From a virus, in IMG/VR virus record IMGVR_UViG_3300000116_000014, positions 12,959-66,478 of that record: a stretch of 53,520 nt of DNA; one strand, written 5' to 3'. The notes under the pieces were generated by a model that was given only the letters and a program-made list of their open reading frames with translations, did not search any database and had not been told where the DNA came from. Below, one piece after another: positions 1,470-42,472 of the stretch (position 1 is its first letter; each line of letters opens with the position of its first letter). Position numbers and translations under genes: made by a program.

Positions 1470-1540
1470 ATGTCTATTGATTTTGTGTGGGTCAAACGAC
1501 AGGGCTTTGTGTGTGTTAGAGCTTTGTCGTTTGCTTATAT

Positions 1541-1722
1541 CTGTATAGGACAGAATGGCACTTGCCGATTTTTGGGGGCCGGTGGATATAAAGTCTTCAG
1601 AAGGGGTAAATGGGGTGTTGGCGTAGTCGTGTAGCCAGTACCTATAGTACCGTGAATCGCCTTGATAGTCAATGGCGGTGCGGGTTTAACTACTAAGTCC
1701 GGATCATCCGGAGGAGAACAAC
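1541..1722 (+). promoter_or_regulatory. Duplicated leader, copy 1, upstream of second early block
   Basis: The gap 1417-1722 holds the terminator and then this leader. Bases 1541-1590 match 6541-6590 at 41 of 50 positions, including the identical block GGCACTTGCCGATT. Weaker similarity (AGTCAAT, TTAAC, TACT) continues to a palindrome copy at 1698 that abuts the Shine-Dalgarno GGAGGAG of the gene at 1723. Short stems are possible (CTGT/ACAG at the start). This points to a conserved 5' leader or promoter region. No consensus sigma-70 promoter was convincing. Confidence 0.6.
1698..1712. repeat. Dispersed palindrome, copy 2 (overlaps RBS)
   Basis: TCCGGATCATCCGGA, a perfect 15-bp palindrome about its central base. 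Its right arm runs directly into GGAGGAG, the ribosome-binding site of the gene at 1723. A bound dimer, or an RNA hairpin with stem TCCGG/CCGGA, would sit over the translation start region. Confidence 0.85.
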
Positions 1723-1917
1723 ATGATAAAACAAGAATTGATTGACGAGGCATTGAGTCGGGTAATTGTTGACGTATTTGTAGGTGACATCACCGCTATT
1801 CAGGAGTTACTTAGACTTACACCCCGAAAAATACTATTAGGTTTCCTAGATGAAGAGAGAGCGGCAGAACTTAAACTCCGTCTGGATAACCCATTCCCTA
1901 CGGAGGACAAGTCATGA
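1723..1917 (+). CDS. Unknown small early protein (64 aa)
   Basis: ATG is preceded by a strong GGAGGAG. It is the first gene of the second early block, behind the leader and palindrome. The product looks alpha-helical (two amphipathic helices, DEALSRVIVDVF and EERAAELKLRL). No family recognised. It overlaps the next start as ATGA. Confidence 0.75.
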   Translation: MIKQELIDEALSRVIVDVFVGDITAIQELLRLTPRKILLGFLDEERAAELKLRLDNPFPTEDKS

Positions 1918-2069
1918 ACAGACAGACAAAAATGGAATTGAAAAGAGAGTTAGCGATACTCGGATGGAGCATCGTCAAGGCAATGTTCTTTTGCTTCTTC
2001 GTCCTCGCCCTATCATGGTCACTGGTAACAGTGGCTGTGACGTTCCAGATAATTCAGATAGGAGGTTAA
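1914..2069 (+). CDS. 51-aa single-pass membrane protein
   Basis: ATG 1914 overlaps the preceding stop (TCATGA) after GGAGG. The basic N-terminus (MNRQTKMELKRE) is followed by a hydrophobic stretch of about 25 residues (residues 19-45, rich in F, L, V, A) and a short polar tail. This predicts an inner-membrane protein with its N-terminus in the cytoplasm. Early phage membrane peptides often affect host division, exclusion or transport, but nothing here identifies which. Confidence 0.7.
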   Translation: MNRQTKMELKRELAILGWSIVKAMFFCFFVLALSWSLVTVAVTFQIIQIGG

Positions 2070-2071
2070 GT

Positions 2072-2293
2072 ATGTGTAATACATGCCCGACTAAATGTAA
2101 TGCCGAAGTGGTGCAGTATGTACCGCTAGGCTATCACCACAAGGAAGTAATCTCTAAGTGTGGTAGCACTGGCCACACTGGAGAAGAACTTAGGTGTGAT
2201 CGATGCGAGAACATCAAGCCTTGGTACATATGTGAGGGCTGCGGCTCTGACATCAGCGAATATGACTGCCCTCGTGGCTGTGGAGAACAATAA
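2072..2293 (+). CDS. Cysteine-rich zinc-ribbon protein (73 aa)
   Basis: The start at 2072 has GGAGG a few bases upstream; longer in-frame extensions lack a ribosome-binding site and cross the membrane-protein gene. The product has cysteines in pairs: CNTC and C9 at the N-terminus, CDRC, CEGC, and two more near the C-terminus (YDCPRGCGEQ). This pattern fits one or two zinc ribbons. A nucleic-acid or protein-binding role is inferred. The stop overlaps the next start (TAATGA). Confidence 0.75.
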   Translation: MCNTCPTKCNAEVVQYVPLGYHHKEVISKCGSTGHTGEELRCDRCENIKPWYICEGCGSDISEYDCPRGCGEQ

Positions 2294-2694
2294 TGATTTC
2301 ATATGCAGATAAGTACAGCCAAGTAATAGTATCTCAAACTCTAGAATCTGAGAGTGCAGAGTATGAGGCAGCAAAACGAAACCCATACGGAGAAATTAAT
2401 CCGAACAAGTTTCTTCAGTCCATCATCAACTGGAAGACTAACATAAGTCATCTCGACTATATCCTCTGGGTATCTCCTATCAATGTAACCGAGGATGGAG
2501 TCGCCTATGAAATAGATTGGGGTACTCACATCCATTCGGTCGTATCTTCAAGTGAGAAATGCTTGGTTGAATATGTCGATGATGAATTGTTCAAGGTGAC
2601 CGCACCTGTTGGGGGTGAAAGACGTTTCGCAATGCGAGGAGGGTTTATTAACAATTCCAACACTCTCGTACCAAGCTGGGGGTCACACTCATGA
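2293..2694 (+). CDS. Unknown early protein (133 aa)
   Basis: Translationally coupled to the zinc-ribbon gene by TAATG. The C-terminal half is beta-rich with repeated aromatic and hydroxyl residues. No domain, signal or membrane segment is recognisable. It ends in an ATGA overlap with the next gene. Function unknown. Confidence 0.7.
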   Translation: MISYADKYSQVIVSQTLESESAEYEAAKRNPYGEINPNKFLQSIINWKTNISHLDYILWVSPINVTEDGVAYEIDWGTHIHSVVSSSEKCLVEYVDDELFKVTAPVGGERRFAMRGGFINNSNTLVPSWGSHS

Positions 2695-3284
2695 GGGAAG
2701 AAACGATCACTATCTATAACTACTCTGAGCTGTCGGATAAGGCTAAGGAAAATGCCTATGAAAACTTCGTGATGAATAATGAGCACCACTTTGCAGAGGA
2801 AGGTATGGATACCCTCATATCTTTTCTTAAATGGTCTGGCATAAGCATAGGTAGATACGAGATAGGTGCCTATCAATATAGCTATATCAGAACGGATATA
2901 CCTGAAGATTGTCAGGAGGAAATACGAACCATGGAGGTCGAGTGTCGCCTACTAGGTCTTGATGAACAGGATACAGAGGACAGACTCTTACAATCGTTTG
3001 ACCAAATGCAGATAGATATAAATCATCTCTCACCAAATCACCCAGATGAGAGTCTAAATCACTGGGGCAGTGGGTGGTGCATGACTGACGATATCATTCA
3101 CTACTGGGATACACACTTGAAAGAAAACCCTCTCGATAACATCGGTGCGCTTCATGCTGTGGTTGATGGAGCACTATCTCAAATGGTAGCCGACTTGGAG
3201 CATCAAGATTCGAGGGAATACTTCGAGGAGGTTATGCAAGATTATCATCAGAATGAGTACCTAGAAGACGGAACCCTACACTAA
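2691..3284 (+). CDS. Conserved phage protein with YxxxELSDKAKExA N-terminus (197 aa)
   Basis: The N-terminus IYNYSELSDKAKENAYENF resembles a family of uncharacterised phage and plasmid proteins that begin with 'ELS(D/E)KAKE(K/N)A', recognised here from memory of the motif only. The rest is acidic, with many histidine and tryptophan residues (WGSGWC at about 125) and a helical C-terminus. No catalytic signature is evident. The gene ends just before a palindrome copy and so is the last gene of its sub-block. Confidence 0.75.
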   Translation: MREETITIYNYSELSDKAKENAYENFVMNNEHHFAEEGMDTLISFLKWSGISIGRYEIGAYQYSYIRTDIPEDCQEEIRTMEVECRLLGLDEQDTEDRLLQSFDQMQIDINHLSPNHPDESLNHWGSGWCMTDDIIHYWDTHLKENPLDNIGALHAVVDGALSQMVADLEHQDSREYFEEVMQDYHQNEYLEDGTLH

Positions 3285-3285
3285 C

Positions 3286-3299
3286 TCCGGATCATCCGG
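3286..3299. repeat. Dispersed palindrome, copy 3 (intergenic)
   Basis: TCCGGATCATCCGG lies two bases after a stop codon and is followed by TGGAGAA, the ribosome-binding site of the gene at 3313. The same layout (palindrome, one base, GGAGAA) is seen at copy 4. Confidence 0.85.
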
Positions 3300-3312
3300 T
3301 GGAGAAATCACT

Positions 3313-3513
3313 ATGGAAAACTTAAGACTAAGAAACGTACAGGTAGGTGGCATTTGCATGGCTGACTACCCAGACTTCGTGGATGCGTATATCTCTTACG
3401 CAGAAGATTCTAATGGGAAAGCCTTGACTGATGAGCAGTTGGAGACCCTGACTAATGAGCATCAGGATTTTGTGCAAGAGTGGGCGCACGATGAAATTAT
3501 GGGGAGAGTGTAA
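3313..3513 (+). CDS. Conserved small phage protein with DYPDFVDAYI motif (66 aa)
   Basis: GGAGAA lies 8 nt before the ATG. The core DYPDFVDAYISYAED followed by an acidic helix (LTDEQLETLTNE) resembles a short protein family common in phages of marine bacteria. This is recognition by motif, and no biochemical role is known to me. The gene follows palindrome copy 3 and overlaps the next start (TAATG). Confidence 0.75.
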   Translation: MENLRLRNVQVGGICMADYPDFVDAYISYAEDSNGKALTDEQLETLTNEHQDFVQEWAHDEIMGRV

Positions 3514-3839
3514 TGAAACTCTATGTGAACGAAAGCCGCACCCAATGGGCTGGTACTCAAGCGGATGCCAAGAAAGAACTTGGTAAGTATGAGGCATTTG
3601 ATGTGCCTGTGGATAAGTCTGGCTTGCTAGCGTTCCTCAATAAGGAGTCAGGATTTAACATAGATCCTGTTGAGGTTGAGCAGCAACCAGTGGTGACCAA
3701 TCAACGTGACACACGCCCTCTTAATGACACTCTAGTGGGACGCTGTAACCTAGTTGAATTAAAGGAACTGTCTACCATGATGAACGTACTTTTGAATCGT
3801 ACATGGAACGACATGGATAAATTAACGGAGGACGTATGA
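3513..3839 (+). CDS. Conserved phage protein MKLYVNESRTQWAGTQ-type (108 aa)
   Basis: The N-terminus KLYVNESRTQWAGTQADA looks like a short conserved phage protein family of unknown function. A beta-strand start, a polar linker around residues 50-75, then a helical C-terminus. The last three residues EDV are encoded by GAGGACGTA, which carries the ribosome-binding site and overlaps the next ATG. Confidence 0.75.
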   Translation: MKLYVNESRTQWAGTQADAKKELGKYEAFDVPVDKSGLLAFLNKESGFNIDPVEVEQQPVVTNQRDTRPLNDTLVGRCNLVELKELSTMMNVLLNRTWNDMDKLTEDV

Positions 3840-4012
3840 AAACTTATACAGTTGTGTGGGAGGTAGAGTTAGATGCTGACAGTCACAGAGAAGCTGCTGA
3901 GGAAGCACGGAGTATGCAGTTAGATGCCTACTCTGAAGCTACGTTTTTCGATGTTACTTGTTTGGATGCTAAAGGTAATGAAATTGAAATAGGAGTTGAT
4001 TTAAATGGGTAA
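3836..4012 (+). CDS. Small beta-alpha protein (58 aa)
   Basis: The start at 3836 overlaps the previous stop after GGAGGAC. The sequence KTYTVVWEVELDADSHREAA is a beta strand followed by a helix rich in A and E, a fold typical of small phage early proteins. A similar strand-helix-strand layout is seen in the 56-aa product at 5458, so the two could be distant paralogues. It overlaps the next gene by 8 nt. Confidence 0.65.
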   Translation: MKTYTVVWEVELDADSHREAAEEARSMQLDAYSEATFFDVTCLDAKGNEIEIGVDLNG

Positions 4013-4343
4013 ATTAAGCAATCAGGAAGTAAGTAGCTACGTTAATAATCTTAAACCGTTCGAGACCAATAGCGGTAGCATATTTTCAGATGGAGGTAGG
4101 GACAAAGGGTTATACGCTGTCTACTCCTACGGGTATCACTTCCCGATGTACGTCTACGACACTGCATCTAAACAATGGTTCGGGAACCACGACAAATACA
4201 GCAACACCACCTCACGCCATCAGAATTGTGCCCAGCCTAGCGCCAAGATACATTGGATGGGAACCCGCGACATGAAGCTGCTCACTGCCGCCGGTTCCCT
4301 AGCTAGAAGGTGTGCCAATAGAATGAAAGGAGAAGCAGCATGA
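4005..4343 (+). CDS. Conserved phage protein with YSYGYHFPMYVYD core (112 aa)
   Basis: The central block (YAVYSYGYHFPMYVYD, then W-x-G-N-x-x-K-Y-S-x-T-T-S-R-H-Q) is a pattern I recognise from many uncharacterised phage and plasmid proteins, where it forms a compact domain rich in aromatic residues. The role is unknown. The start overlaps the previous stop by 8 nt, and an AAAGGAGAA site for the next gene lies in its 3' end. Confidence 0.8.
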   Translation: MGKLSNQEVSSYVNNLKPFETNSGSIFSDGGRDKGLYAVYSYGYHFPMYVYDTASKQWFGNHDKYSNTTSRHQNCAQPSAKIHWMGTRDMKLLTAAGSLARRCANRMKGEAA

Positions 4344-4531
4344 CATCTGATCAACTAAAACTTTTAGCGGCTGTTAACAATGCAGAGTTAGTGCTTAGAA
4401 AAACACGATCAGTCATAGAGGATGCAGAGGCGTCTATTAAATTTTGTAAATTAACTGAGAAGGTTTACCTCAGAAAACTAAGGGCGTCTAAGGCAGCTTT
4501 AAGTAATAACAGGAAGGGAGCTTCAGTATGA
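4340..4531 (+). CDS. Small helical basic protein (63 aa)
   Basis: ATG overlaps the upstream stop (GCATGA) after AAAGGAG. Nearly all residues are in long charged helices (LVLRKTRSVIEDAEASIKF), net basic, and compatible with a coiled-coil hairpin. No recognised family. Coupled by ATGA to the next gene. Confidence 0.7.
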   Translation: MTSDQLKLLAAVNNAELVLRKTRSVIEDAEASIKFCKLTEKVYLRKLRASKAALSNNRKGASV

Positions 4532-4848
4532 TCAAAGTAACCCAGCGTATGTTAAACAAGTCGATCATCGATGCTAACAAAGCGGTGACGTCATTTGTTA
4601 ATGACAATCTGCCCCAAGGGTATGAGGGTCTAACAGATAAGATCACCTACCCTGCCCTAATAGGACGTCCTGATGAATGGACTGATGGCTGGATAGAGTC
4701 TGAGCTAAGGCTTTATAAACGGATACGAGGTGACAAACTTTTGTCAATCAAAAACTTAGGCAAGATAGCTGATGTTGGTGACGTCTTGACCTTTGATTCA
4801 ACTGATGGCGTCAGTGTTTTGATAACTGTAACCAAGGGGGATGTATGA
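4528..4848 (+). CDS. Unknown early protein (106 aa)
   Basis: It starts inside the previous stop after AAGGGAG. Mixed alpha/beta, with WTDGWIESELRLYKRIRG in the middle and a C-terminal beta-rich part ending TKGDV. The final codons hold the GGGGGATGTATGA junction that starts the next gene. No motif points to a function. Confidence 0.7.
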   Translation: MIKVTQRMLNKSIIDANKAVTSFVNDNLPQGYEGLTDKITYPALIGRPDEWTDGWIESELRLYKRIRGDKLLSIKNLGKIADVGDVLTFDSTDGVSVLITVTKGDV

Positions 4849-5246
4849 GTAAATTATATATCGTTTTAGACAGTGAACACCGCATGTGCGATGTAGGCTT
4901 TAACGAAGGCGGGTGCAGCGTGTGGAGTACATACGAGGATGCTTTGCAGTCAGCCCATACAGAACATGCAAGACCCTATGGCCTAACGAATCAAGAAGGA
5001 CTAGATGAAGATTGTCCCTATTATGATTATCAAATTCTAATTGTTGAAAAGATAGGTCACTCAGTCAACCAATGTGAAGTTTACCTGCCAAAAAAAGTAG
5101 ACTTTGATTTTGTTATGGACACCTTTGTATCTGTTCGAGCGCCCGAAGGTACTGACCCTGACGATCTTATTAAAGAGGCCAAGATTAGGTTTCAAGACGT
5201 AGCAAAGAATACTAACTTTGATGTGGTTTTAAAGGAGGATGTATGA
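4845..5246 (+). CDS. Unknown acidic early protein (133 aa)
   Basis: It begins at the GGGGATGTATGA junction. The product is acidic, starting with a beta strand (KLYIVLDSE). It carries DCPYYDYQILIVEKIG in the centre and an EVYLPKK...FVSVRAPEG section that may be a second strand-helix unit. It ends LKEDV, again overlapping the next start. Function unknown. Confidence 0.7.
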   Translation: MSKLYIVLDSEHRMCDVGFNEGGCSVWSTYEDALQSAHTEHARPYGLTNQEGLDEDCPYYDYQILIVEKIGHSVNQCEVYLPKKVDFDFVMDTFVSVRAPEGTDPDDLIKEAKIRFQDVAKNTNFDVVLKEDV

Positions 5247-5449
5247 GTAAAAGATTCTGTACTTACATGAGTGATTCCAATGACTTAACTGATCGTCCGA
5301 TTAGATTTATAGTGGAAGGCCAAAGCCTACCTGACGATTGGTCTGAGTATGTATGGCAGTACGCCAAGGATGGGGACGAAGCAGTTAGCCAACATGTGGA
5401 AAAGCATGATCTCTGGCAAAAAGATCGGGTAGAGAAACACACCTACTAG
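5243..5449 (+). CDS. Unknown small acidic protein (68 aa)
   Basis: ATG within GGAGGATGTATGA. The acidic product has several tryptophans (DDWSEYVWQYAKDGDEAV). The stop TAG is immediately followed by GGAGGATGTATG, so here the junction motif lies just outside the coding frame instead of encoding the C-terminus. No family recognised. Confidence 0.7.
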   Translation: MSKRFCTYMSDSNDLTDRPIRFIVEGQSLPDDWSEYVWQYAKDGDEAVSQHVEKHDLWQKDRVEKHTY

Positions 5450-5457
5450 GAGGATGT

Positions 5458-5628
5458 ATGAAAAAATATAACGTTTACATTACTTATCCAGTTAAACATA
5501 GCTATGAAGTAGAAGCAGAAAATGAAGATGAAGCTAAACAAATGGCTTGTGAAGGCGAAGGCTATATCACAACAGAATATGTGGAGTACAAAACTGAGAT
5601 TGAAATAACCGAAGGAGGAGGCGTATGA
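5458..5628 (+). CDS. Small beta-alpha-beta protein (56 aa)
   Basis: AGGAGGATGT precedes the ATG. KKYNVYITYPVKHSYEVEAENEDEAKQMA is a beta hairpin and helix of the type common in short phage proteins, and the C-terminus has another strand (VEYKTEIEITE). It ends GGGV, encoded by GGAGGAGGCGTATGA, and overlaps the next ATG. Possibly a distant relative of the 58-aa product at 3836. Function unknown. Confidence 0.7.
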   Translation: MKKYNVYITYPVKHSYEVEAENEDEAKQMACEGEGYITTEYVEYKTEIEITEGGGV

Positions 5629-5831
5629 GTAAAGCTGAATCTATATATGAATGGTTCCAAGATCACTTCGATACCTTCGAGTGCTATCCCATGGATTGGA
5701 TTGATTACGCTGACACTGACTTCACTCACACTGATGCAGGTTATGAAGAAGTAGGACGGCTATATAATTGGGACGAATGTTGGGCCATATTGAACGAGCA
5801 TTATCCAAATGTTAAGTGGAGGATGAACTAA
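5625..5831 (+). CDS. Unknown acidic small protein (68 aa)
   Basis: The start lies inside the GGAGGAGGCGTATGA junction. The product is strongly acidic and rich in aromatics (YEWFQDHFDTFECYPMDWIDYADTD has many D, W, F and Y residues). Such acidic, aromatic small proteins can mimic nucleic acid or bind host proteins, but that is inference only. The stop lies directly against the next start. Confidence 0.7.
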   Translation: MSKAESIYEWFQDHFDTFECYPMDWIDYADTDFTHTDAGYEEVGRLYNWDECWAILNEHYPNVKWRMN

Positions 5832-5990
5832 ATGTCTAGTAAAGGTCACTGGTTTCCTTGCGGGAACATAAACATGAAAGGACGTAAGACACAGAAAGCT
5901 CCTTGTGGGTGCTGTAGTGAAATACAGAACCAAAAAGACAAGCTCCTTATAAAAATACATAGAAAAGAAGCTAAGGAGACTTATGACTAA
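5832..5990 (+). CDS. 52-aa cysteine-containing basic protein
   Basis: ATG at 5832 lies about 9 nt after GGAGG, which sits in the end of the previous gene. Cysteines occur as FPCGN and APCGCC, separated by a basic stretch (KGRKTQK), followed by a lysine-rich helix. A minimal zinc knuckle is possible. Function unknown; too small for firm assignment. Confidence 0.6.
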   Translation: MSSKGHWFPCGNINMKGRKTQKAPCGCCSEIQNQKDKLLIKIHRKEAKETYD

Positions 5991-6007
5991 CCAATAACGG
6001 AGGACGT

Positions 6008-6316
6008 ATGGACTATAAGAACAAACCAAAGGTAGCAGTATGTCAGGAGTGTGATTCAGAAGATCTTTCTGCCACAGGGTACTTGTTATGGGATAAAGAT
6101 AAAGGCGACTGGCTTTCTAATCCTAACGATGAGTTGCATGGTGTTTGGTGTTTCGACTGTGATGGCGAATGTATCGTAGACTACATAACAGAAGAGGAAC
6201 TGAAGTTACGTCAGGTAAAAGGAAGGCTCCTCAGTTCTAAGGGTGTCTATAATATAGATCTATACAAAGGAATGGATGCTGGTGCTATCTATAAAAAACT
6301 TCAGGGGGATGTATGA
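6008..6316 (+). CDS. Zinc-ribbon protein, paralogue A (102 aa)
   Basis: The ribosome-binding site is CGGAGGACGT. Two knuckles, VCQECDS near residue 12 and WCFDCDGEC near residue 50, enclose a beta-rich region, a classic four-cysteine ribbon. It is followed by VDYITEEELKLRQVK. The next gene encodes a shorter protein with the same knuckles and the same tail, so the pair is a tandem duplication. Binding of nucleic acid or host protein is likely by fold; the target is unknown. It ends LQGDV at another junction motif. Confidence 0.8.
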   Translation: MDYKNKPKVAVCQECDSEDLSATGYLLWDKDKGDWLSNPNDELHGVWCFDCDGECIVDYITEEELKLRQVKGRLLSSKGVYNIDLYKGMDAGAIYKKLQGDV

Positions 6317-6540
6317 AAACTTATGCCGTCTGTCAGGAGTGTGATTCACTGGAGATTGAAGGATTAGCAACTGTCTTCTGGGATCATGTCGTAGGTGAAT
6401 GGGTGCTACCTCGTGGGGATTATATATATGATTCTGTCTGGTGCCCTCGATGTGAAGGCGAATGTAACGTGGACTATCTAACAGAAGAAGAGCTGAAGGT
6501 ACGTCAGGTAAAGACTAGACTACAAGGTGTCAGTGTATAA
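6313..6540 (+). CDS. Zinc-ribbon protein, paralogue B (75 aa)
   Basis: It shares with its upstream neighbour the blocks VCQECDS, WC-x-x-C-x-GEC, VDYxTEEEL and RQVK, at the same spacing, but lacks the 25-residue C-terminal extension. Starts in the GGGGGATGTATGA junction. It is the last gene of its block: the stop is immediately followed by the second copy of the duplicated leader. Confidence 0.8.
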   Translation: MKTYAVCQECDSLEIEGLATVFWDHVVGEWVLPRGDYIYDSVWCPRCEGECNVDYLTEEELKVRQVKTRLQGVSV

Positions 6541-6736
6541 CTGTATAGCACATACAGGCACTTGCCGATTTCTCGGGGCCGGTACACATAAACAAACTTA
6601 GCGGGTAATACAGAGACATAGGTGTTGAAAACCTATACCTTATTGTGCCCTAAATTTATATTAAAGTCAATCATATCAGTGACTTAACTTATCTACTCCG
6701 GATCATCCGGCGGAGAACTAACTAGGAGTATCCATC
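6541..6736 (+). promoter_or_regulatory. Duplicated leader, copy 2, upstream of third early block
   Basis: Starts at the base after a stop codon. Bases 6541-6590 are 82% identical to 1541-1590. Visible stems include CTGTAT/ATACAG (6541-6557), CCGA/TCGG around a UUUC loop, and ATAGGT/ACCTAT with a 7-nt loop at about 6620-6638. Palindrome copy 4 and the ribosome-binding site of the gene at 6737 follow. No open frame is shared by the two copies, so this is a non-coding leader or promoter element. Confidence 0.6.
6697..6710. repeat. Dispersed palindrome, copy 4 (intergenic)
   Basis: TCCGGATCATCCGG preceded by AC and followed by CGGAGAA, as at copies 2 and 3. It stands 26 bases before the ATG of the gene at 6737, which has a second, better-placed AGGAG of its own. 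Confidence 0.85.
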
Positions 6737-21108: not shown

Positions 21109-21330
21109 CTATTGCTGAATGGTTATGTATCGCTCGGGGTACAAGATTTCAATCTCATTGATCTCTTTCTTAAAGAAGATGCTCAGTTTTTCTGCGAGAT
21201 CAGGAGAAGTTTTTTCACCTCGCTCAATGCGCGAGAGGTGGCCGTTGTCTACGCCAACCTGAGCACAGACATACTGGAGGGAGAAGCCTTTAAGTTTGCG
21301 AATGTTTCTGAGAGGAGATGATTCATTCAT
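21109..21330 (-). CDS. XRE-family regulator (73 aa), Cro-like
   Basis: A single helix-turn-helix domain: NIRKLKGFSLQYVCAQVGVDNGHLSRIERGEKTSPDLAEKLSIFF, the XRE pattern, with no protease or dimerisation domain. First gene of the leftward replication operon, divergent from the plus-strand genes at 21548. Likely binds the TTTCGYATTA sites in the gap. By analogy it is the lytic switch protein, although it could equally be the lysogeny repressor. Confidence 0.8.
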   Translation of the reverse strand: MNESSPLRNIRKLKGFSLQYVCAQVGVDNGHLSRIERGEKTSPDLAEKLSIFFKKEINEIEILYPERYITIQQ

Positions 21331-21936: not shown

Positions 21937-22269
21937 ATGCAACTTATTCTAGGCCCACTAGCCAAGAGAATGCGGATGCAACTTGGTCTAAAGCAAGCGG
22001 ATGTGGCTAAAGAAATTGGCACCACCGCAGGAAATCTATGTAGATTTGAGAAAGGAAATCAGGGTTTAAGCGATCCATTATTGGAGAAGTTAACGAAGAA
22101 ACTTAACACAACACCAGAGCAGTTAATTTTAATGAACCTAACAACCACGCCAAGTGAGTTACTGGAGTACGCTGTGTTGTTATCTAAACTAAATGCTAAT
22201 CAGATGTTGGGTGTTAAGGCTGTCATAGACTCTATGGTCTCTGATGTTAACGATGATGGGAGGGGTTGA
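21937..22269 (+). CDS. XRE-family regulator (110 aa), repressor-like
   Basis: Helix-turn-helix at residues 10-55 (MRMQLGLKQADVAKEIGTTAGNLCRFEKGNQGLSDPLLEKLTKKL), then a 50-residue C-terminal helical region that could support dimers. GGGAGAT precedes ATG. With the divergent 73-aa regulator it forms a two-protein switch; the longer one is the better CI-like candidate, although it lacks a peptidase domain and so could not self-cleave. Which protein keeps lysogeny cannot be decided from sequence. Confidence 0.8.
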   Translation: MQLILGPLAKRMRMQLGLKQADVAKEIGTTAGNLCRFEKGNQGLSDPLLEKLTKKLNTTPEQLILMNLTTTPSELLEYAVLLSKLNANQMLGVKAVIDSMVSDVNDDGRG

Positions 22270-24380: not shown

Positions 24381-24857
24381 ATGTCAGGTTTAAATGAAGT
24401 AAATCTTATTGGAAATGTAGGACAACAACCACAGGTTGTTAACACCGCGAACGGCAGCACCATTTTAAAAATGTCACTAGCTACCTCTGACAAGTGGAAG
24501 GATAAACAGTCAGGTGAAACAAAAGAAAAAACTGAATGGCATCGCATCAGCGTGTTCGGAAAGACAGCTGAGAATCTTGCTCAGTATATAAATTCAGGGG
24601 ATAAACTTTTCGTTCGCGGGAAAATTCAAACGTCTAAATATCAGGACAAAAGCAGCGGCGAAGATCGTTACTCCACAGACATTATTGTGGATGGATTCTC
24701 TGGCGCAATCCAAATGTTGGGAAGCAAATCGGCAGGTGGAGGTGGGCAGCAACGTGCGCCACAGCAGAAGCAACGTGCTCCGCAGCAACGTGCGCCACAG
24801 CAACAGCAGCAGCCACCCGCTGATGACGGATTTGATGACGACATTCCTTTTAATTAG
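24381..24857 (+). CDS. ssb: Single-stranded DNA-binding protein
   Basis: The 158-residue product starts with the OB-fold pattern of bacterial SSB (NEVNLIGNVGQQPQV...KMSLATSDKW...TEWHRISVFGKTAENLAQYINSG). It ends in DDDIPFN, the conserved acidic tip that recruits partner proteins. The linker has repeated QQRAP units encoded by direct repeats. Placed right after ERF and YqaJ genes, matching a role in recombination and replication. Confidence 0.95.
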   Translation: MSGLNEVNLIGNVGQQPQVVNTANGSTILKMSLATSDKWKDKQSGETKEKTEWHRISVFGKTAENLAQYINSGDKLFVRGKIQTSKYQDKSSGEDRYSTDIIVDGFSGAIQMLGSKSAGGGGQQRAPQQKQRAPQQRAPQQQQQPPADDGFDDDIPFN

Positions 24858-29924: not shown

Positions 29925-32900
29925 TTATTCTTTACCGAACGTATACTCATTTATTAAATACAAATGCTTCTTGGGTAAGACCACACCTTCAATCGCTGAC
30001 GCTTTCATGATGACCTTGGACTTCAGGCTGGCAAGAAGTGTCTTCGATGTGATCAACTCTGACTGAACGAGATACTTCATAGCTGGATCTTTAATATCAT
30101 TAATGCGCTCCATAATATAATTGTTCCACCTAGTCACAGCCGCCAATGCGTCCTGTACATCTGACTGATCTCCACCTGAAATTGCGGTATAAACATCACC
30201 AAGCACGTTTCGTCTGACCGCTTTCTGTTGTTCAGATTTATTCTTCCCAGCAAATGCCCGACTGTATGTAGAGCTTACGACTTCTGGAGTAAATCCTAGG
30301 GCTTGAATAACTATATCACTCGTGTCGAGTGAATCGATAACCTCCAAATCATTGCGTGTCTTGACACCATTCTTTGAGTAATCAACAGCTTTGTAAGCGT
30401 CCCGTACAACCTTGGGTAATGCAGACTTCAGATTATTAGTGGGGTTTCCTTCATACACATCCTGAGCAAAGTTGAAAGTAGATCCACCGATGCCACCGAA
30501 CACTGGGCCAGCCACTGATAATAAAAGTTCCTTGTAATATTCTTTGCCTGAAGACATCGGACGATCTGGCATCATGATTAACAGGTTCGTGTTCTGTCCT
30601 GTTCTTGATGCTATGTCTACGCCTAACGCATTACCGAGTCCTTTGCTGAGTAGAGCACTCATGAATTGCTGCTCATCATCATCGAACATGCCTCTAACAA
30701 GGTCGTCCAACCATTGAGTAAACTCAACTTCACTTGAGACAACCTCCTCTTCATCATCAGCAAATAAGTTGTACGCTACGCCGCCCATCCACACAGCTAC
30801 GGCTATTGGTAGTACACCTGTTGCCCCAGCTGCTAACATCTGGAATGTGACAAGACCGGCAAGGGCTTTCATTGCTTCTCTACGTTTCTCTGGAGACAAA
30901 GACTTGTCTCTACCTAAAGCCTCACGAGCGAGCTGAGAGTACATGTAGATAACGTGCTGACCATAGATTTTAAAGGTCGTCATCGACTTGATAATGTTGT
31001 TCTCTCGCATAGCCCTTGGACGGTTCTCAGATTCATACAAGAACTGAGTTTCTCCAATCAACTCACGCACCTCGTCATAAATCTTTAGCTCATTCTCGCT
31101 CATCTCTTCAGAGCTTTTGAACGTAGATCCTTTGAACAGCTCAGGGTGCTTGTCTTTGATCAGTCTGTATGTGGCTAATCCAGTGACCTCTCGGTTACTC
31201 ATCTCAGCCCCGTGGAACATATAAGCACCTGTGCGCATTAGCTTCTGCATTTTCGTGCCGAATACGCTAGGCGTTCTCTGATCAGAGTGAGCTTCTTCAG
31301 TGATCGAGCCAACTCGAGTGATGTCTATATCTCCTCGGTCTATTAACACCTTGATAAAGTTCTGCTCATCAGCTGTGACATTCTTATTGCCATCTCGCGC
31401 GAACGACTTGTACGCATCACGCAAAGACAACTCACTCTTGCCAAGATGCCAGTCAGTCATTGTCTTGAGGAACACTGCTGATGTTTTAGCTAGGCCATAC
31501 CGCGCACCGACAATCGGAATTGCTATCGTTGGAACCTGAGTCAAGTTGACAAACGCTGCGGCAGGAGACCAACCAAGGTAATGGAAGAAAGCCAACCGTC
31601 CTGCGTTCGATGCCCATGCTGCGCCTGTTGGATTCATAGTCAACTCGAATCTCTTCGTCATCTCAGCATGTGTTGCTGAAGCAATATCAGCATACTGTTG
31701 CGTAACTTGCGAAGCCTCACCCGTGGCAAACTTGCGATTCTCTAGACCGATGTCGTTCAATTCAGATTGGATTCGATCAGCATACTTAATCTTAGAGATC
31801 TGCTGTGCCGACTGAAGCATCATGTTCTGAACTGACCTTCTCATGTCAGATGACGCACCCTTGGTGCCAAGCCGCTGACGTCTACGCTGCATGATGGAGC
31901 TAGAAGGTAACGTGTTCAGCATCAAATTGTTTATATCAGTCTTGAGCTGTTCAGTTGATGCTCGGATAGACGATCTAGCATTTTCATCCATCATATCATC
32001 ACGAAGAACATCATCCCGATTCTCATCAAGCGCAGTAAATAGATTGTCTCTGAACGAGAAGAGGTCACCTGACTGAGCTGTCTTGCCCATGTCAGCCATG
32101 TACGTCATGCGTGCATTATCTTCACCCCACTTGGACTTGTGCCACTTCAACGCACGCTCAGCTTCTGTGCGGCTCTCGAACTGCTCTCGAACAAACTCCC
32201 TCTTGCCATTAATTTCTGCAAAAGCAATGACAACATGATTGCCAAATCTAGATAGAGGGAAGTATGGGCCGCGCTTAATTAACTCACCCATCCGATTCTT
32301 CAAAGCTTTCTTAGCCGACTCACGATGAACAGGGTTTTCAATCTGCCTATCAATACGAGCAAGTAACTCACTCTGCTCCATCTCATACTGCTCTCGTAAC
32401 ATAACTCGGGTGTCATCATAAACGAGCTTGGCATTAGCGGTGAGCTTGTTCCACTCCCTTCTCAATCGGGCATGCTCGGACTGCATAAAGGCTAAGCTTT
32501 CTTCTAAATTAGAAATGTTTGCCATGTCCACTTTAGTCTTCTTGGGTTTTGCCTTTAGCTTATCAAGCCTATTCTGGTCAAGACGAACAAACTCATGAAC
32601 TTTATTCGCCATTGATTCGTCAGGGTGTATGCCAGCAATCGTAGAATCACGCATGAGACTAGCCAAAGAGTTAGCTTCCTTGGTACTTAACTTGTCCCAA
32701 ATCTTCTCCTCTTTTTCAAACCCATGAAGCGCTCGTTCTTTATCAACTCTGAACTCACCTAGTAAATTGTTAATGGTCTTTAACGGGTTACCATCTTTCC
32801 AGTCAAACGCCGCCTTATAGGTGCGGAAGATCTGAGTATTAGTTAACCAATACTGGAGGAAGTTACGGTTCTTGTTCTGATTAATAACCTTAGAAGCCGA

Positions 32901-35900
32901 ATCAACTGTTGATTTACGGAAGTTCTCAGCTGCTAAGCCACCAAGAATCTTACCTACATTTTCTTCCGAGTCAGCAAATACCTCCATCTGCTTAGGAGCA
33001 TCGAGCTTGCTCACTTTGGAATAGAGAATCTGACCCGCAGTTTGTGGTGCTGTGTTTGCATTAGCATTGTCAGTGTAAACGTGGCGCTTGGCATCTAATA
33101 CTAAGTCTCTTAAATTACCATTCGATGCAATGTAATTGTTAGAGAACGTGCGCTTCATCCACATACGGATAGCGTCATACACACGAGTCATCAATGAACG
33201 AGACTCCAATCCTTCAGCCATCACTGCGATGATCTCCTCAGCTTCCTGCTCACGGCTAAGCTGACCTTCCCTATTCATAACTACTTCAGCCGCAGCAACC
33301 ACTTCAGGATCGCCATTCGCTTTCATGTCCTGCACTTCGTCTAGGATTGAGTTGAACTCATCTCCTAACATAGATTGAATGCCATAGTGGCCAACAACCT
33401 CATGACTAAAGACAGTACGCGCCTCTGACTTAGAGTGAATGTTGTCAGCAACGAGGTACGAAGTCATGCTGTTAGGAATGAATAGACCTCTTGCTGTTGG
33501 GTCGATGTCTGCGTTAAGCCCTGCGGTTGGAATATCAGAAACAGATTGAACCACTTCAACTGAGTGCCCAAGCTTACTCATGTTTGCTAATACAGAATTA
33601 CCTACCCACTTCTGAACATCTTTAACAGACTTACTTGAAAGACCTCTAGCCTTTTCACTGACTGACTGACGAGAGTAGACCACACCTCTGTCGTTGAGGT
33701 CAGTAGCTATTGCCTTAGCATGCGCTGTCTGCCAGACGTAGAAGAACGTTTCATTATTCCTGCTCTTAGGTGTAATGAAAGCACTTTCATTTCCCTTTTT
33801 GTCTAAGGGAAGTATCCTTCTTAGAGTGGCCTCAATAGACGCCTTATTAGCAGGAGTGGCTGTAAGGCTTAAATACTTTTTACCCTTGGCAGTCTCAGCT
33901 GTAATAGGATTAGCGCCATGCCGCTTCAGCTCTTCTATGTAGGTGTCACCAGCCTCTGGTTTAATAGCTGGCTTGACCTCAACTGAACCGAGGTCGCCTC
34001 CTCTGGCCTTAACTGCTTCTATTTGCTGTGGCGTCAACCCACCTGAACCATCACCTTCAAGGTCATAAACAGTTCCATCGTCATCCGCTACTCTGTTACC
34101 ATCTCCGTCTTTAGTCCCTTCCCACTCAAACGAATCAAAGATACTTGGCTCACCGCTCGAACTCAACAGTGTGTTAAGTTTGCGTTTAACCACTAATGAT
34201 TTGTGCTCATCACCTATGCCACCTTCCAGATTAACCACATGAACGACTGAAGCAGACTGGGTATTCTTTCTTGAGACTCGACCAATTAACTGAACCACTT
34301 TATCACCAGACCAGTTCTTGGTGACCATGATAAGTGAACGAGGAGTATCTCCTACAACGTCATCCAAGTTGATTCCAGTACCACCAGAAGCAGCAGTTAT
34401 TAAAGCAACGGGAGCCTTTCCTTCTTGGAATTCTGCTACGTTTTCTTTACGCTCATCTGTGGTGTCTCCCGTAAGCTCCGTATAGTTTATTCCCTCAGAA
34501 TCCAAGCGCTCTTTCATCAAGCCGATGAACCCCATAATTTTCTTATCATCTAAGCCTTTAATAGTTAAATCGTTACTGACAGTCTCCGCTGCTACAATAA
34601 CTTGTTTACCGTTAGCAAGATCTTCTTTAAGCTGTTCTACTGTTGCGTCTAGCTTGAGGTGCTCTTCCCACCTTACGAACTCATTGATCCTTTGGCCCTT
34701 CATCGTACTAGGATTGCCTTTAGCAGCCATCTCTGACGACCACCATCTATCCATCTCACTTTGCTCGATCCTTGATTCTTCTGTCATCTGAACATTAATG
34801 TCATTGGTTGTGCCAAAGAAAGGGTAGTACCGCTTGAGCATACGTCCTGACTTAATGACAAAATCTCTCATCTCAGCTACTTTTTCCAAAGCCCTCTTAG
34901 GAGAAACACCCTTCTTTAGCACCACCTCTTTTGGCCCTTCTATATATAGGCCAGATTTAGTCTTCACCTTCTTACCAGTGGCCAGCTTATGACCTAACCG
35001 ATCAAGCGCTTTCTCATATGTCTCACCTGTTATTTGCGCCCACATGTTAGCACCAGATGAAGCACGATCCATTGGTGTAGCTGTAACGTAAACTACTTTT
35101 TCTTTCCTTAGCCCACGACTTGCCTTAGCTTGAATGGTGTCGTAGTTCTTTAGGTTATGAGCCTCATCAAATAAAACCATACCCCAGTCTTGGTCGAACT
35201 CAGAATTTACTGCGTTCCCTTTCTTGCCGTCCTTAAAACTATTGTATGTTCCCGTCTTAAACTGGTTCATGTCGATGCCCATAATCGCAGCATCTTCAGC
35301 AAAGTTCTTTTTGAGAATCTCGGGCTTCTCAGAAATTATTAGAACCTTCTTACCTGTAGACTTTTTGTATTGATCAGCTATGGCTAGAATTTGTCGGGTC
35401 TTACCAAAGCCCGTACCATCCGCTAACAAGAACCCTTTGTAGTTTTTTTCCATCATAGATGACAACGCTAGATCAACACCCATACGTTGCCCTGCATCTA
35501 ACGAATCAGCATAGACAGATGAGTGATCATTTATAGTTGCACGATCTGGAATAATATCAGGTCTTACTTCGACAGCTGGCAGTCTACCCTTAGCAAGATT
35601 TGTCTCTGTTGCTATTCTTTGTGTAGGTATTCCTACCAAGGTTCTAGATGGATCTCCCAAGTTTCTAGATGGCTTGGACTCAGCTACGATGACCTTCCTT
35701 TGTTCATCTAATTGTTCTATTTGAACAGCTTCTATGGCCTCAGCTTGAGCAGCTTGAGCAGCTTCAGCAGCCACACGGATCTTAGTTTGAGCAGCTACGT
35801 TAGCCAGTAATGCTTCCATAGAAGCATCGAGGCCATCTTCTGATGCTGGCACATTGAACTTGATGTCATCAATCTTTCCATTTACTTGGAGAGAAGTTTC

Positions 35901-38900
35901 CACATCAGCCTCAGTAAACTGCTTACCGAAACTCTGCAACGTCCTGCGAACATCTGCCTTGGTGTAGTGCTCATAGAAGCCCACCTTACGGAGTGCCTTC
36001 ATGACGTATGAAACAATCGCATCCCAAGCTTTACCAAACTTAGATTGATCTGCCTCTTCAGCTACTCGTGCAAAAACTTCTTCAGCAATAGAAGACTCTA
36101 TGCTCTCGTCAGTAGCTCCCTGATTTTTCCAACCATCAATGTAAGGCTTATATCTGGTACGAACATTATCAAAAATGAGAGTCATTTCTTTGTTCTGACC
36201 TTCTGCCTTAGACACCCTGTTTAATATATCCATCTTCTCTTCAAGAGTAGTAAAGACAGACAAGCCATAGTGGGCAAGGATTTCGTGGCGCAGAACAGAC
36301 TCAAGTTCAGCCGTGTTATTAATTCCAGCAGCGTTTAGCGTCACTACTTTATTCTTTAGGCTACCGACAGCTGCACCGTCAGGCACAGGTGTGTTGATTA
36401 TGTTGTACTTAATATCAGGTATGCCGTTGTACTTAGCTTCAAAATTATTTATGACTGATTGCACAGACGCAACAGACATACCATTCGTATTTCTTAGCTG
36501 ACTTCTAGATACAAATTTCCGCCCAAGAATATCTGCGACATCAAATATGTCATCTATATCAGAATTAGTAATACCACTGGCGGGTTTAGATTTTTTGACT
36601 ACAACGCCTAATTCAACTAACGCCTTTTCTATCTTTGGGATAAGCGCCTTCGCGGCTTTGCGATCCGCAGCATTAAGCGTAGTATCTTTTGAATTAGACT
36701 TCGCATCTTTTAAACCTAATTGCAGCTGATCTATCTGATCTTGATCTGCGGTTGCGTCAGCAGGGTCTATCTCAATCTCTGGATCAGTGTTATCCGCATA
36801 GCCATTCAAGTCTCCCCAGTCTTGTTCATCATCAATCGTGAGATCTTCATCAGCAGTAAGGGTTGTTTCACCCAAAAATTCTTTAATAGGATCTGTGTTG
36901 CTAACAGTAAATGTTTCAGATTCAGCTTCAGCTTCAGCTTCAGTTTCATCGACTGTCTTTGCTTTTGTGGGTAGAGGCGGAAGGTCTGGGTCTGAGGCTA
37001 TGACCTCTAACTGCTGCATTATATCTTCAGTAGTTAGACCATCATCAGCCTTAGTCTTTTTACCCTGTCTTACAGGTGCTCTACCAGCTTCCTCAATGGC
37101 AGCGTCTTCCTCCTGTTCTTCTTGTATTGCAGCGTCACTTCTTAAATCGTTTTCACGTTCCAACTTAACCTTCGCCTGAAACAAAGCTTTGGTTGGATTA
37201 ATAACGTGGACAGCTCCATCAACCTCACCATCACGGAAGTAAAGAGCTTGGTTCTTAAGCTTCCCCCGTACTGATTGTGAGTTAGCCTTGGAAACTTTAA
37301 TACCAACAAGCAGCCCCGTATCTCCATCACTTAATACGTCTTCCTTTCCTTTTGCTTTCTTATGGCTACTTAAGAATTCATTGATAGCCGATGTGTCCCC
37401 CATCAAAGTCACAGACCCATCATCATTCTCTATCGAATCAAACTTGCTTACTGAATTGAACATGATGGATACTGCTTCAAGCCTATCCTTACCCTCTTCT
37501 AGCTCGAACTTACCTTTCTGTTCCCCACTTGCAAGCAATGCGTTAACAGTGTTGATGCGTAGGTTTGCAAATTCAGTTGCGGCTATTAAGGTGTCTGATT
37601 TTCCATCAGAATCAACATCAAGTAGTTCGCTTATGTTTTCCTCAGTGAGAGCCTCCATGCTATCCCCTTTGATGTAATCAAATAGGGGATCACTCTTGCG
37701 TGTAAGCATAAAGAGTTGGGGTTGGTTAGGGTATTTCTCGCTAGGAGTTTGGGCTAGGACGTAAGGTAATCCGCTATTCTCAATATTCTCTTGAAGGTTA
37801 TTTCTAGGCTCAGTAACAGCAACGTCTGTAGAAGCAGCTTCCTCGGACTTACCTACTGTGTCCATCCTGCTAACAGAAGTGACTACAAAGAAGTCATCAG
37901 ATACCTGTGATTTCTGAACGTCATAAGCACTGTTAGATCCGATTGTTTTTAATGCGTTCTCAGCAGACGTCTTATTGTCGTATGCCATCGGTTCATCTGT
38001 GCGCATTTTCTTTGAAGGGATCAAAGCGTCAAGAACAAATGACTTCTGCTCTCCAAACAAACCAAGGGTAGCTGTAGGACGATAGAGTCCCAATCCCTTT
38101 CGTTCAAGATCCTTAGCCTCTTCCACAGCCGCATCCTGCGTTGCAAAGACTTGAGCATAAACATCATCAGTGCCCTTCTCCCCCACATAAAGAGCAAGCT
38201 TTAAACCATCACCCCTTACTACAAACTGGAGAACCCTATCATCGTTAACTAGATCTGATGGATCATTGTTTGATGTTGATCCTACATCCTTTAAATCGAA
38301 CGCTACTTCCGCAGCTGCTTTAGCCACAACCTCAGTTGTATCTTGCACCGGATCATCCGGACTTGAATCAACAACTTCATTTGTACTAACTGGGTCTTCA
38401 ACTTCGTTAACATCTGTATTACCTTCAAATAAATCATTAGCTTGTGGGTTTTGTACTGGGTCTGCCTGAGTGGTTAAGCTTACGCCACCATCGAGGCTGA
38501 ACCCGTCAACCTCTCGGTCAACTTGGTCTTTAGTTTCACCTGCATCAAGGTCTCGATCTGCTTTGGTAGCAAGGTCTTCTTCGGTTTGAGTGGATAGTTC
38601 AAGGGCTGGCGCAGCTACTTCATCATCTGTAGTTTCTGCTACCACTGGCGCAGCTACTTCATCATCTGTAGTTTCTGCTACTACTGGTTCAGCTACTTCA
38701 TCATCTGTAGTTTCTGCTACTACTGGCGTAGCTACTTCATTACCTGTGAGTTCTGCAACGAGTGCAGGGTTGGTGTGCCAGTTTTGCCATTCGCGCTTCT
38801 GGTCTTTTAGTTCTTCAATCCTAGCTCTAACCGCTTCAGGATCTTTTACATTAACCCCTTCAGCCTTAGCTAACTCTGGATTATTTGATGCACCTGTAAC

Positions 38901-41900
38901 TGCTGTCAACGTGCGCTGTATTTCAGCTTGCTTCTGTACAGCTTTACGCGCTAAATTCTCAGCCTCTTTCATAGCTGAGTCATCAAACCCAAACAGATCC
39001 CCACTCTCTTGAGCAGTATCTCTGGTCATACTGTTGACTGCTTTTACAATATTGACAGACACAGTAATAGACTTGCCTTCTTGTAAGGCTTTGAGTCCAA
39101 CAGCTTGAAGTGTTTCGTTATTAGGTGCGGCTTGGGATACCTGAGTTGCAGCTATGTCACTGATTTGGTCGGCACGATGGGCGGCAACGAGCGCAGGGCT
39201 TCCTTCACTCGCAATCGTGTATGCTCTTCTCCCTGTTTGCCTTGCCAAAATTCCTTGACGGTCTGCTTCTTCTTCACTGATTTGGGTGCCTTGGATGAAC
39301 TCGACATAATCTTTTACCGTCCCTTGACCTTCTCTTATATTTAATAAAACATCCAGCATAGATGCTTGGTCTACCCCGAATCCTTCTGACTCTAGGTGAT
39401 ACTGTGCAGGTATGGTTGTTTCATTGCTTCGCTTGGCTAGGTCAAGACGATGCCTCCCACTGATAACTTCCTTGCGTCCATCTTCACGCAACCAGATCTG
39501 AATAGGTGCAACACCCACCCGATCAAACGTGCCACCAAGAGGGTCAACAACTCCTTCATTGTCTGCCCCATCTTTAAATTGAGGTACATCTTCACTTATA
39601 GTTATGTCAGATATTAGCACTTCAACTACTTGCTGTCCTCCAGCCTGAAACTCTTCCGTTGGCTCCTCAATAACAGCTTCATCAATCTCTTCTAGTACAG
39701 CTTTATTACCTTTGGTTTTCTTACCAGCAGCAGATTTCTTAGCACTCGCGTCAGTGGTTTTATCTGCCTTTGGTACTGTCTTCTTTGGTGGTGTTGGATC
39801 AGGGTCTGGCTCTGGCTCTGGCTCTGGTTGGGTAGCCTCAACTGGCTCTTCAACCGGTTGAGGACTAGGCTTTTTTGCCGTTAAGCTTGGAGCCTTTCCC
39901 TTTTGATAGATTGTTTCTTCCCATACCTCGTAGACTAAAGGCACTACGTTATCGTTAAGTCCTTCAACGTACTCATCGTACATCGCTAACTTAGTAGGCG
40001 TTGGACTTGAAAACAAACCCATAGCTCGTCCTAACGACTGGATATAATAGTCAGCTGAAGCCTTACCTAACTCCGCATTTATCTTTCTGTATTGTCTTCT
40101 GACAGTATTATTAATGGCAGAGGTCTTGGTTAAGGTCTCAATGTATTCAGTATCTTTAGTAAGGATCTTATTGACAGCTTTACGATTTAACTTCTTATCA
40201 TCAGGCGTACCATTAGCACGCAAACTATTCATGTTGTCGCGTACAACACCCTGAAGATCAACCGCAATACCATCCTCTTCTATAGGCTGTAACCTACCGA
40301 ACAAGTCTGTAGATGCAAAAGGATTAGTCTCTTGATTGGCAAATACATCGTATAGGTTGTCACCAGTGGCTTCATCCTGTACATCCACACTTGAATCTGG
40401 ATCTACAGACCCAGCCTCCATCTCCCCATACTCTTCTAACTGAGCTTCAGTCACAGCGTCTTCTGCTTCTAACGCTTGCTGCCATCGAGGCACTTCATTT
40501 AATGGGGTAGGTGCTAGAGCATCGAATTTCTCTTCCATCATCCTGATGCTTTCTTCTTTACGGAAAGCTTGATCAGACCCTACTTCCATTTTCATTAAAG
40601 ACTTTAGCTCACGAATGATTGCGTCTTTGTATACGCGCTGCTCATCAAATCTGTCACTGTCTTTATCTGGCTGGACTTTAGACCACTCAAGTATCCGCTT
40701 TGTTATAGCTGGGTTTGATGCAGGAGCTGTGGGTGCAGAAGTCTCTATCCCAAGATCAACCGGTGTTGATGGTAGTATCTCGTCTAAGTTATTTATCTCA
40801 TCTTGAATACTAGCGATACGATCAGTAGCAGCCTTACGCGCTTCAGGGGCAAGCTTACGATTCTTTGACTGAGCTAATGCTATATCTAAAGCTATCTGCA
40901 AATCAGCTCTGTAGTTAGCCTTTTCAGTAGACTCTTCAACAGGACTTAAAGCACGCGCATTCGCAGCGGCTGCTTGAGGACTAGAACCTACTTGTTCTTC
41001 AACCCTAGCCTTTACAGCTTCGTCACTAGCATCCTCTGGCATTGGCGCTGTAGAAGAATCTTCTAAACGGTCTGGTGCTTTTGGATCTACAGCCTCAGTA
41101 TCTCCTACTAAATCCAGTCCTTCTTCTGCTACTGACTCAGTTGGCCCATCTTTTAATGCCTGAAGAGTTTCATCCAACTCTGATTGTTCTTTTGCTGCCC
41201 GTCTTTCCTGTTGGAATAGATACTCTTGCTGGTCTCCATATCCGGGCATGTCTTTTTCTTTAGTGATGCCAGTCATTTTAGACCCAATGCCACCAACAGC
41301 AGACATCGATCCACCAGAACTAGCACCAAACAAAGTACCAGTTAAGGCTTCATTGGCCACGTTATCCATGGGCTGAACTGACCTATCAGCATTTTTATTC
41401 ACAGCTTGGTTAGTTAGATAAGCTTGACCACCTGATTCAACAAGCTCCTGAGTACCCTCAATGGCTGCACCCTTTAAGGCTCTCTTGGTAATTCCACCGC
41501 TTACCCTACCTAAGACGTTGTTCAAGAACATTGGGCCAAGAATACCCATACTCACTGCACCTAGGCTGAATCCATCAGCAAAGCCATCGTCACTAGCTGC
41601 TTCAGCAACAAAAACTCGAGCTTGTTCTGCTATCTCTTCATGAGTAGCCTCAGTCCCCTCAGCTTTGTATGTATCAGCAATCTTCCAGTAAGCGGCCTGA
41701 TAAGCTGGGTGTTTGTTTAGCTCCTCTGTTGAAGCATTATAAGCCTTATTGTAAGCCTCTTGCTTTGAACCACCACCAATACCTATTCCACCCATACCAG
41801 CCATAGCAGCAGCTTGCGGTACCTTCCCAGCAGGAAGATTCAATGCAGCTTTTCTCGCCACACTAGGCATGACTAGACCACCTGCTGCTCGACCAGCTTT

Positions 41901-42458: not shown

Positions 42459-42472
42459 AATTTGTTCCAACC

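Follow-up and report, generated by a model that had tools for sequence, protein, structure and literature searches.

Why does one short non-coding stretch stand twice in the early region of a phage, ahead of two different genes, and on which strand would it be read? The locus lies in a stretch of 53,520 nucleotides, here called the window, that comprises bases 12,959-66,478 of the 66,478-base virus record IMGVR_UViG_3300000116_000014. The original prediction for this DNA, made from its letters alone, described a duplicated leader in front of two rightward operons, proposed as a promoter-leader unit copied together with a module or as a riboregulator. Here we re-examine the repeat, compare it with a related phage and weigh the readings that its sequence, predicted structure and surroundings allow.

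The phage and its duplicated element

The record belongs to a podovirus-like phage whose internal virion protein has its best relatives in Aeromonas, Vibrio and Stx phages (32-36% identity), and whose gene content includes a primase/helicase, an O-like replication protein and an Erf-like annealing protein. Two HTH regulators (Table 1) possibly constitute a lysogeny switch. Positions 29925-42470 are taken up by one 4181-codon gene, whose product has helicase domains of the SNF2/ResIII type and a large polyvalent protein domain (LPD39), and two 27-nt tandem units at 24746-24808, 93% identical and 36 apart, encode a glutamine-rich stretch.

Recounting confirmed the reported agreement of bases 1541-1590 with 6541-6590 at 41 of 50 positions, for which the chance expectation is about 2e-7 (binomial, all pairs, both strands of the window). 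The agreement extends without gaps to 1536-1592 and 6536-6592, with 47 of 57 positions identical and a spacing of exactly 5000 bases. The fully identical block reported within it is present, but is one base longer than noted (GGCACTTGCCGATTT, 1557-1571 and 6557-6571). Only two copies occur in the 66,478-base record. The weaker similarity ascribed to about 110 further bases is a matter of which copies are compared: over the roughly 105 bases after the block, copies 1 and 2 resemble one another barely above chance (14 of 1000 shuffles were as similar), whereas neither copy's similarity to the third copy described below was reached in any of 1000 shuffles.

In plus-strand order, the element opens with a 43-nt block; after a diverged linker come an inverted repeat and a second conserved stretch ending in AGTCAAT, followed by a palindrome and a start codon. 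As originally described, the palindrome (TCCGGATCATCCGG, at 1698 and 6697) and an ATG (1723 and 6737) follow both copies, and both stand at the end of a gene block, with an intrinsic-terminator-like site at 1435-1468 to the left of copy 1 and copy 2 beginning at the stop codon (6538-6540) of the gene before it. A long inverted repeat (1493-1533, 17 pairs, loop of 7) adjoins copy 1 on its left and has no counterpart at copy 2. Directly before copy 2 lie two adjacent related genes with CxxC pairs (6008-6316 and 6313-6540), apparently a tandem duplication, with a 62-nt stretch that is 87% identical.

Table 1. Coordinates of the repeat copies and associated features (window positions unless indicated; H1, hairpin; promoters, hairpins and RNA ends are predictions)
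Feature	Position	Strand	Description
Copy 1, near-invariant block	1536..1592	-	plus-strand letters CTGTATAG...GGCACTTGCCGATTT...GGGGCCGG; 47/57 identical to copy 2; predicted 3' part of leftward RNA
Copy 1, covariance-model match	1536-1643	-	
Copy 1, H1	1619..1637	-	TGGC/GCCA leftward, loop 11; predicted 5' end of RNA
Copy 1, promoter	1644..1672	-	TTGACT-N17-TACTAT; predicted sigma70-like
Copy 1, palindrome	1698..1712		TCCGGATCATCCGGA; directly before ribosome-binding site of gene 1723
Copy 2, near-invariant block	6536..6592	-	6538-6581 almost unchanged in relative
Copy 2, covariance-model match	6536-6640	-	
Copy 2, H1	6617..6637	-	TATAGGT/ACCTATG leftward, loop 7; predicted 5' end of RNA
Copy 2, promoter	6642..6670	-	TTGACT-N17-CACAAT; predicted sigma70-like
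Copy 2, palindrome	6697..6711		TCCGGATCATCCGGC; before gene 6737
TCCGGATSATCCGG sites	542, 1698, 3286, 6697, 8974, 23049, 38347; L005 12329		
HTH regulators	21109-21330; 21937-22269	-; +	orthologues in relative, 74% and 55% identity

A third copy in a related phage

Scanning viral_contigs with three patterns taken from the block yielded, among the 13 matches of one of these patterns, one true homologue, on the 73.6 kb contig IMGVR_UViG_3300027771_000011 (L031). In the other 12 the similarity was limited to the searched core, and the pattern matches in L004 and L089 were chance matches. Over most of its length the relative is colinear with the window's record, and within the 33.8 kb of the window that aligned the identity is about 77%. 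The gene before its copy is the orthologue of the one before copy 2, which makes this copy the orthologue of copy 2; the contig stops before the region of copy 1, and the relative's copy count refers to the place of copy 2 alone. In bases 6538-6581 the two phages are nearly the same; for the preceding gene identity is 69%, and 58% at third positions. All comparisons below rest on three copies, two of which are orthologues and nearly identical in the block.

The proposal that the element was copied together with a module does not agree with its surroundings. The genes that flank copies 1 and 2, before and after, are unrelated, which indicates that the element was copied by itself, as a unit of its own. 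At copy 2 the two phages have kept the upstream gene and differ in the downstream one, which places the element at a point where genes have been exchanged. On the 5.5 kb viral contig L011 (441-1760), relatives of window genes 3313, 3513 and 2691 are arranged in a different order, which shows that these small genes get shuffled.

Further searches added no copy. The covariance-model search suggested in the original prediction, run over the window and 68 of 89 loci (852,840 bases), recovered the three copies but no further homologue at E up to 5, and an exact-match search of genome_contigs with two core patterns found nothing. Among 41 loci reached through a MazG-like protein (555,468 bases) the repeat was present only in the contig already known; it was absent from 19 loci reached through a neighbouring small protein, including L011, a relative by way of a 197-residue protein. 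The search for protein relatives of the gene following copy 1 led only to an unrelated phage (L003), and blastn of copy 2 returned short scattered matches in four phage records and one plasmid record. The Rfam scan, likewise suggested, matched no family, either at gathering scores in the window or, for the three copies, at E values up to 5. A text search of the literature found no paper with the 14-base core, and searches on phage antisense and small RNAs found no such element.

A leftward promoter-like site and a conserved hairpin

On the minus strand, and there only, all three copies contain a sigma70-like promoter sequence: read on that strand, the conserved AGTCAAT includes the -35 box TTGACT, followed after 17 bases by TACTAT, CACAAT or, in the third copy, CATAAT. 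No other promoter-like site of 9/12 or better is common to the three copies on either strand, and shuffling the columns of the diverged part yielded such a shared site in 2 of 2000 trials. The scores themselves (9, 9 and 10 of 12) are moderate and denote a match to the consensus, not activity; across 11.5 kb, sites scoring at least 9 number 21, against 23.2 in shuffled sequence. Between copies 1 and 3 we read one inserted and one deleted base in the spacer, the length of which is still 17; MAFFT aligned the spacer region without gaps. No rightward promoter-like site of at least 8/12 was found within 200 bases before any copy, although a distant promoter is possible. The rightward promoter-leader unit first envisaged is thus not borne out, since the copies have no rightward promoter-like site in common and all three have the leftward one.

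Just downstream of this site, in the leftward sense, unguided RNAalifold found a hairpin, H1, formed by the arms of the inverted repeat (on the plus strand TTGGC/GCCAG in copy 1, ATAGGT/ACCTAT in copy 2 and CTAGG/CCTAG in copy 3), with a loop of 11 in copy 1 and of 7-9 in the others. Of its six pairs, three have undergone double changes, two are invariant, and the remaining one deviates solely through a mismatch in copy 1; in a pair-shuffle control, 43 of 500 shuffles covaried at least as strongly. The consensus fold of the 34-column segment was equalled in none of 1000 shuffles leftward and in one of 1000 rightward, and the stems of the single sequences were matched in length by none of 3000 shuffled triples leftward and by two rightward, all promoter and structure tests having been made after the pattern was seen. 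Neither strand of the whole copies has an unusual folding energy. These results support a hairpin kept by compensatory changes across the three copies, and with it the idea of an RNA element at this place, for which Rfam holds no match. Among the stems originally listed, ATAGGT/ACCTAT is the one that covaries; CTGTAT/ATACAG is broken in copy 1 (three of five counted pairs), and CCGA/TCGG contains a mismatched pair there.

Because H1 forms on the plus strand too, and because the terminator scan found no leftward intrinsic terminator beside the block, the main rival reading is a structured leader or intercistronic element of the rightward early mRNA, in which H1 and the block would work in cis, much as nut or put sites do, on either the downstream gene or the elongating RNA polymerase. 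We consider this possible but doubtful. It accords with the similar distance at which copies 1 and 2 precede a rightward start codon, with the significant consensus energy of H1 on the plus strand, and with copy 1, which folds better there: leftward, two of its six pairs are broken, and rightward it forms a 10-pair helix with three G-U pairs, its wobble pairs favouring that strand. The copies, however, have no rightward promoter in common, the wobble pairs of copies 2 and 3 favour the leftward strand, RNAalifold of the whole element on the plus strand gives a positive covariation term, and the genes downstream are unrelated.

Coding potential, conserved block and palindrome

Reading both strands, we found no frame with a start codon common to all three copies, in agreement with the original prediction. 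Short ATG frames do cover the block, leftward in copies 2 and 3 and rightward in copy 1, and a tiny protein gene might be read from the leftward 19-codon frame of copy 2 or from the rightward 23-codon frame of copy 1 (ATG at 1555). The latter cannot start in copy 2, the leftward ATGs have no Shine-Dalgarno sequence ahead of them, and third positions of the block are as fixed as the others. The lack of a common start and the fixed third positions make coding unlikely, and we hold a protein gene here to be very improbable.

The block yields no significant consensus fold, and its conservation is letter by letter. Together with the separate palindrome beside it, this would suit a control site at the level of DNA, with binding sites for phage proteins, a divergent promoter region and the inverted repeat as operator, and no functional RNA. 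Such a site seems unlikely to us, as the arms of the inverted repeat differ within one phage (TTGGC versus ATAGG) and its loop varies from 11 to 7-9, which would not be expected of the operator of a single protein.

The palindrome itself, TCCGGATSATCCGG, spans 14-15 bp; the 66.5 kb record has eight occurrences of it, one with an altered first base. It is found ahead of ribosome-binding sites, ahead of a terminator (8974) and, in frame, within three genes; as it occurs apart from the repeat too, it is a separate feature. It may be a protein-binding site. In the relative the related palindromes are TCCGGCTCAGCCGG or close variants, which means that both arms have changed together; two of them again lie directly before terminators. 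The two HTH regulators were considered for a link to the palindrome; both have orthologues in the relative with similar recognition regions, and so do not explain the change. Four matches of the palindrome in other viral contigs have no further DNA similarity to the window.

A candidate leftward small RNA

Taking promoter, hairpin and block together, we tentatively favour, with somewhat less than even confidence, a non-coding RNA gene of about 100 nt, present in two copies in the early region and transcribed leftward against the early operons. The direction is probably opposite to that originally predicted. Transcription would start just past the sigma70-type promoter, at the foot of H1, and run leftward, so that the RNA would begin with the hairpin and end near the left edge of the conserved block, giving a 5' hairpin and a conserved 3' domain. 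An antisense or small regulatory RNA acting by base pairing appears the likeliest form. Over its own copy, each RNA would be perfectly complementary to the rightward mRNA; through the shared block, either could also pair with the mRNA of the other copy and so tune expression across the operon junctions. A target in the host is equally conceivable. Elsewhere in the phage, perfect complementarity to the RNA extends to at most 12 bases, which we judge to be near chance. A more specific proposal, which we think rather improbable, is that the near-invariant domain of 43 nt has a host RNA or protein as its target in trans, for instance as a decoy or mimic that blocks a defence system or a regulator, with the variable 5' hairpin serving only to protect the RNA; the element would then represent a new duplicated small-RNA family.

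Comparison with known systems

The lambda nut and HK022 put sites are antitermination sites, present as two structured copies before early operons. The element here likewise has two structured copies ahead of early operons; unlike nut and put, both copies here lie on one strand and lack a common rightward promoter, and the stretch of 200 bases searched before each copy holds no site that would place it downstream of its own operon's promoter.

The sar antisense RNA of phage P22 belongs to the immunity I region (PMC2629481), and our candidate resembles it as a small RNA from an intercistronic region of a temperate podovirus, antisense to an operon, with no known sequence relation; here there are two copies, and the RNA would run away from the downstream ribosome-binding site. 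PeSL (promoter early stem-loops) of T4-type phages, promoter-terminator units repeated where small genes are exchanged (cited in PMC4503421), are likewise regulatory cassettes at junctions of small-gene exchange, but the promoter here points leftward, away from the downstream gene, and the unit contains no terminator. The start-associated sequences of cluster K mycobacteriophages (PMC3203893) are comparable to the palindrome only: like it they stand just before ribosome-binding sites and vary in their letters between related phages, whereas the palindrome is symmetric and also occurs before terminators and inside genes. Racr RNA anti-CRISPRs (PMC10651486) are intergenic phage RNA genes with a hairpin, downstream of a predicted promoter, as our candidate would be; an exact-match search of two core patterns in genome_contigs found no mimicked host repeat.

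Measured against antisense and small RNAs in general, all three copies carry a promoter-like site of their own directed against the operon, as a consensus match; no frame with a start is common to them, and conserved structure is supported for H1, with no significant fold in the block. With no Rfam match and no homologue found beyond the three copies, we regard the element as a candidate new family within a known kind of RNA, the phage antisense or small RNAs.

Implications

If the RNA is made, it would constitute a small-RNA family without an Rfam entry, present in two copies in one phage and strictly conserved in its relative. The case supplies predicted 5' ends and natural compensatory changes that are directly testable, and it illustrates that what looks like a duplicated leader can turn out to be a gene on the opposite strand.
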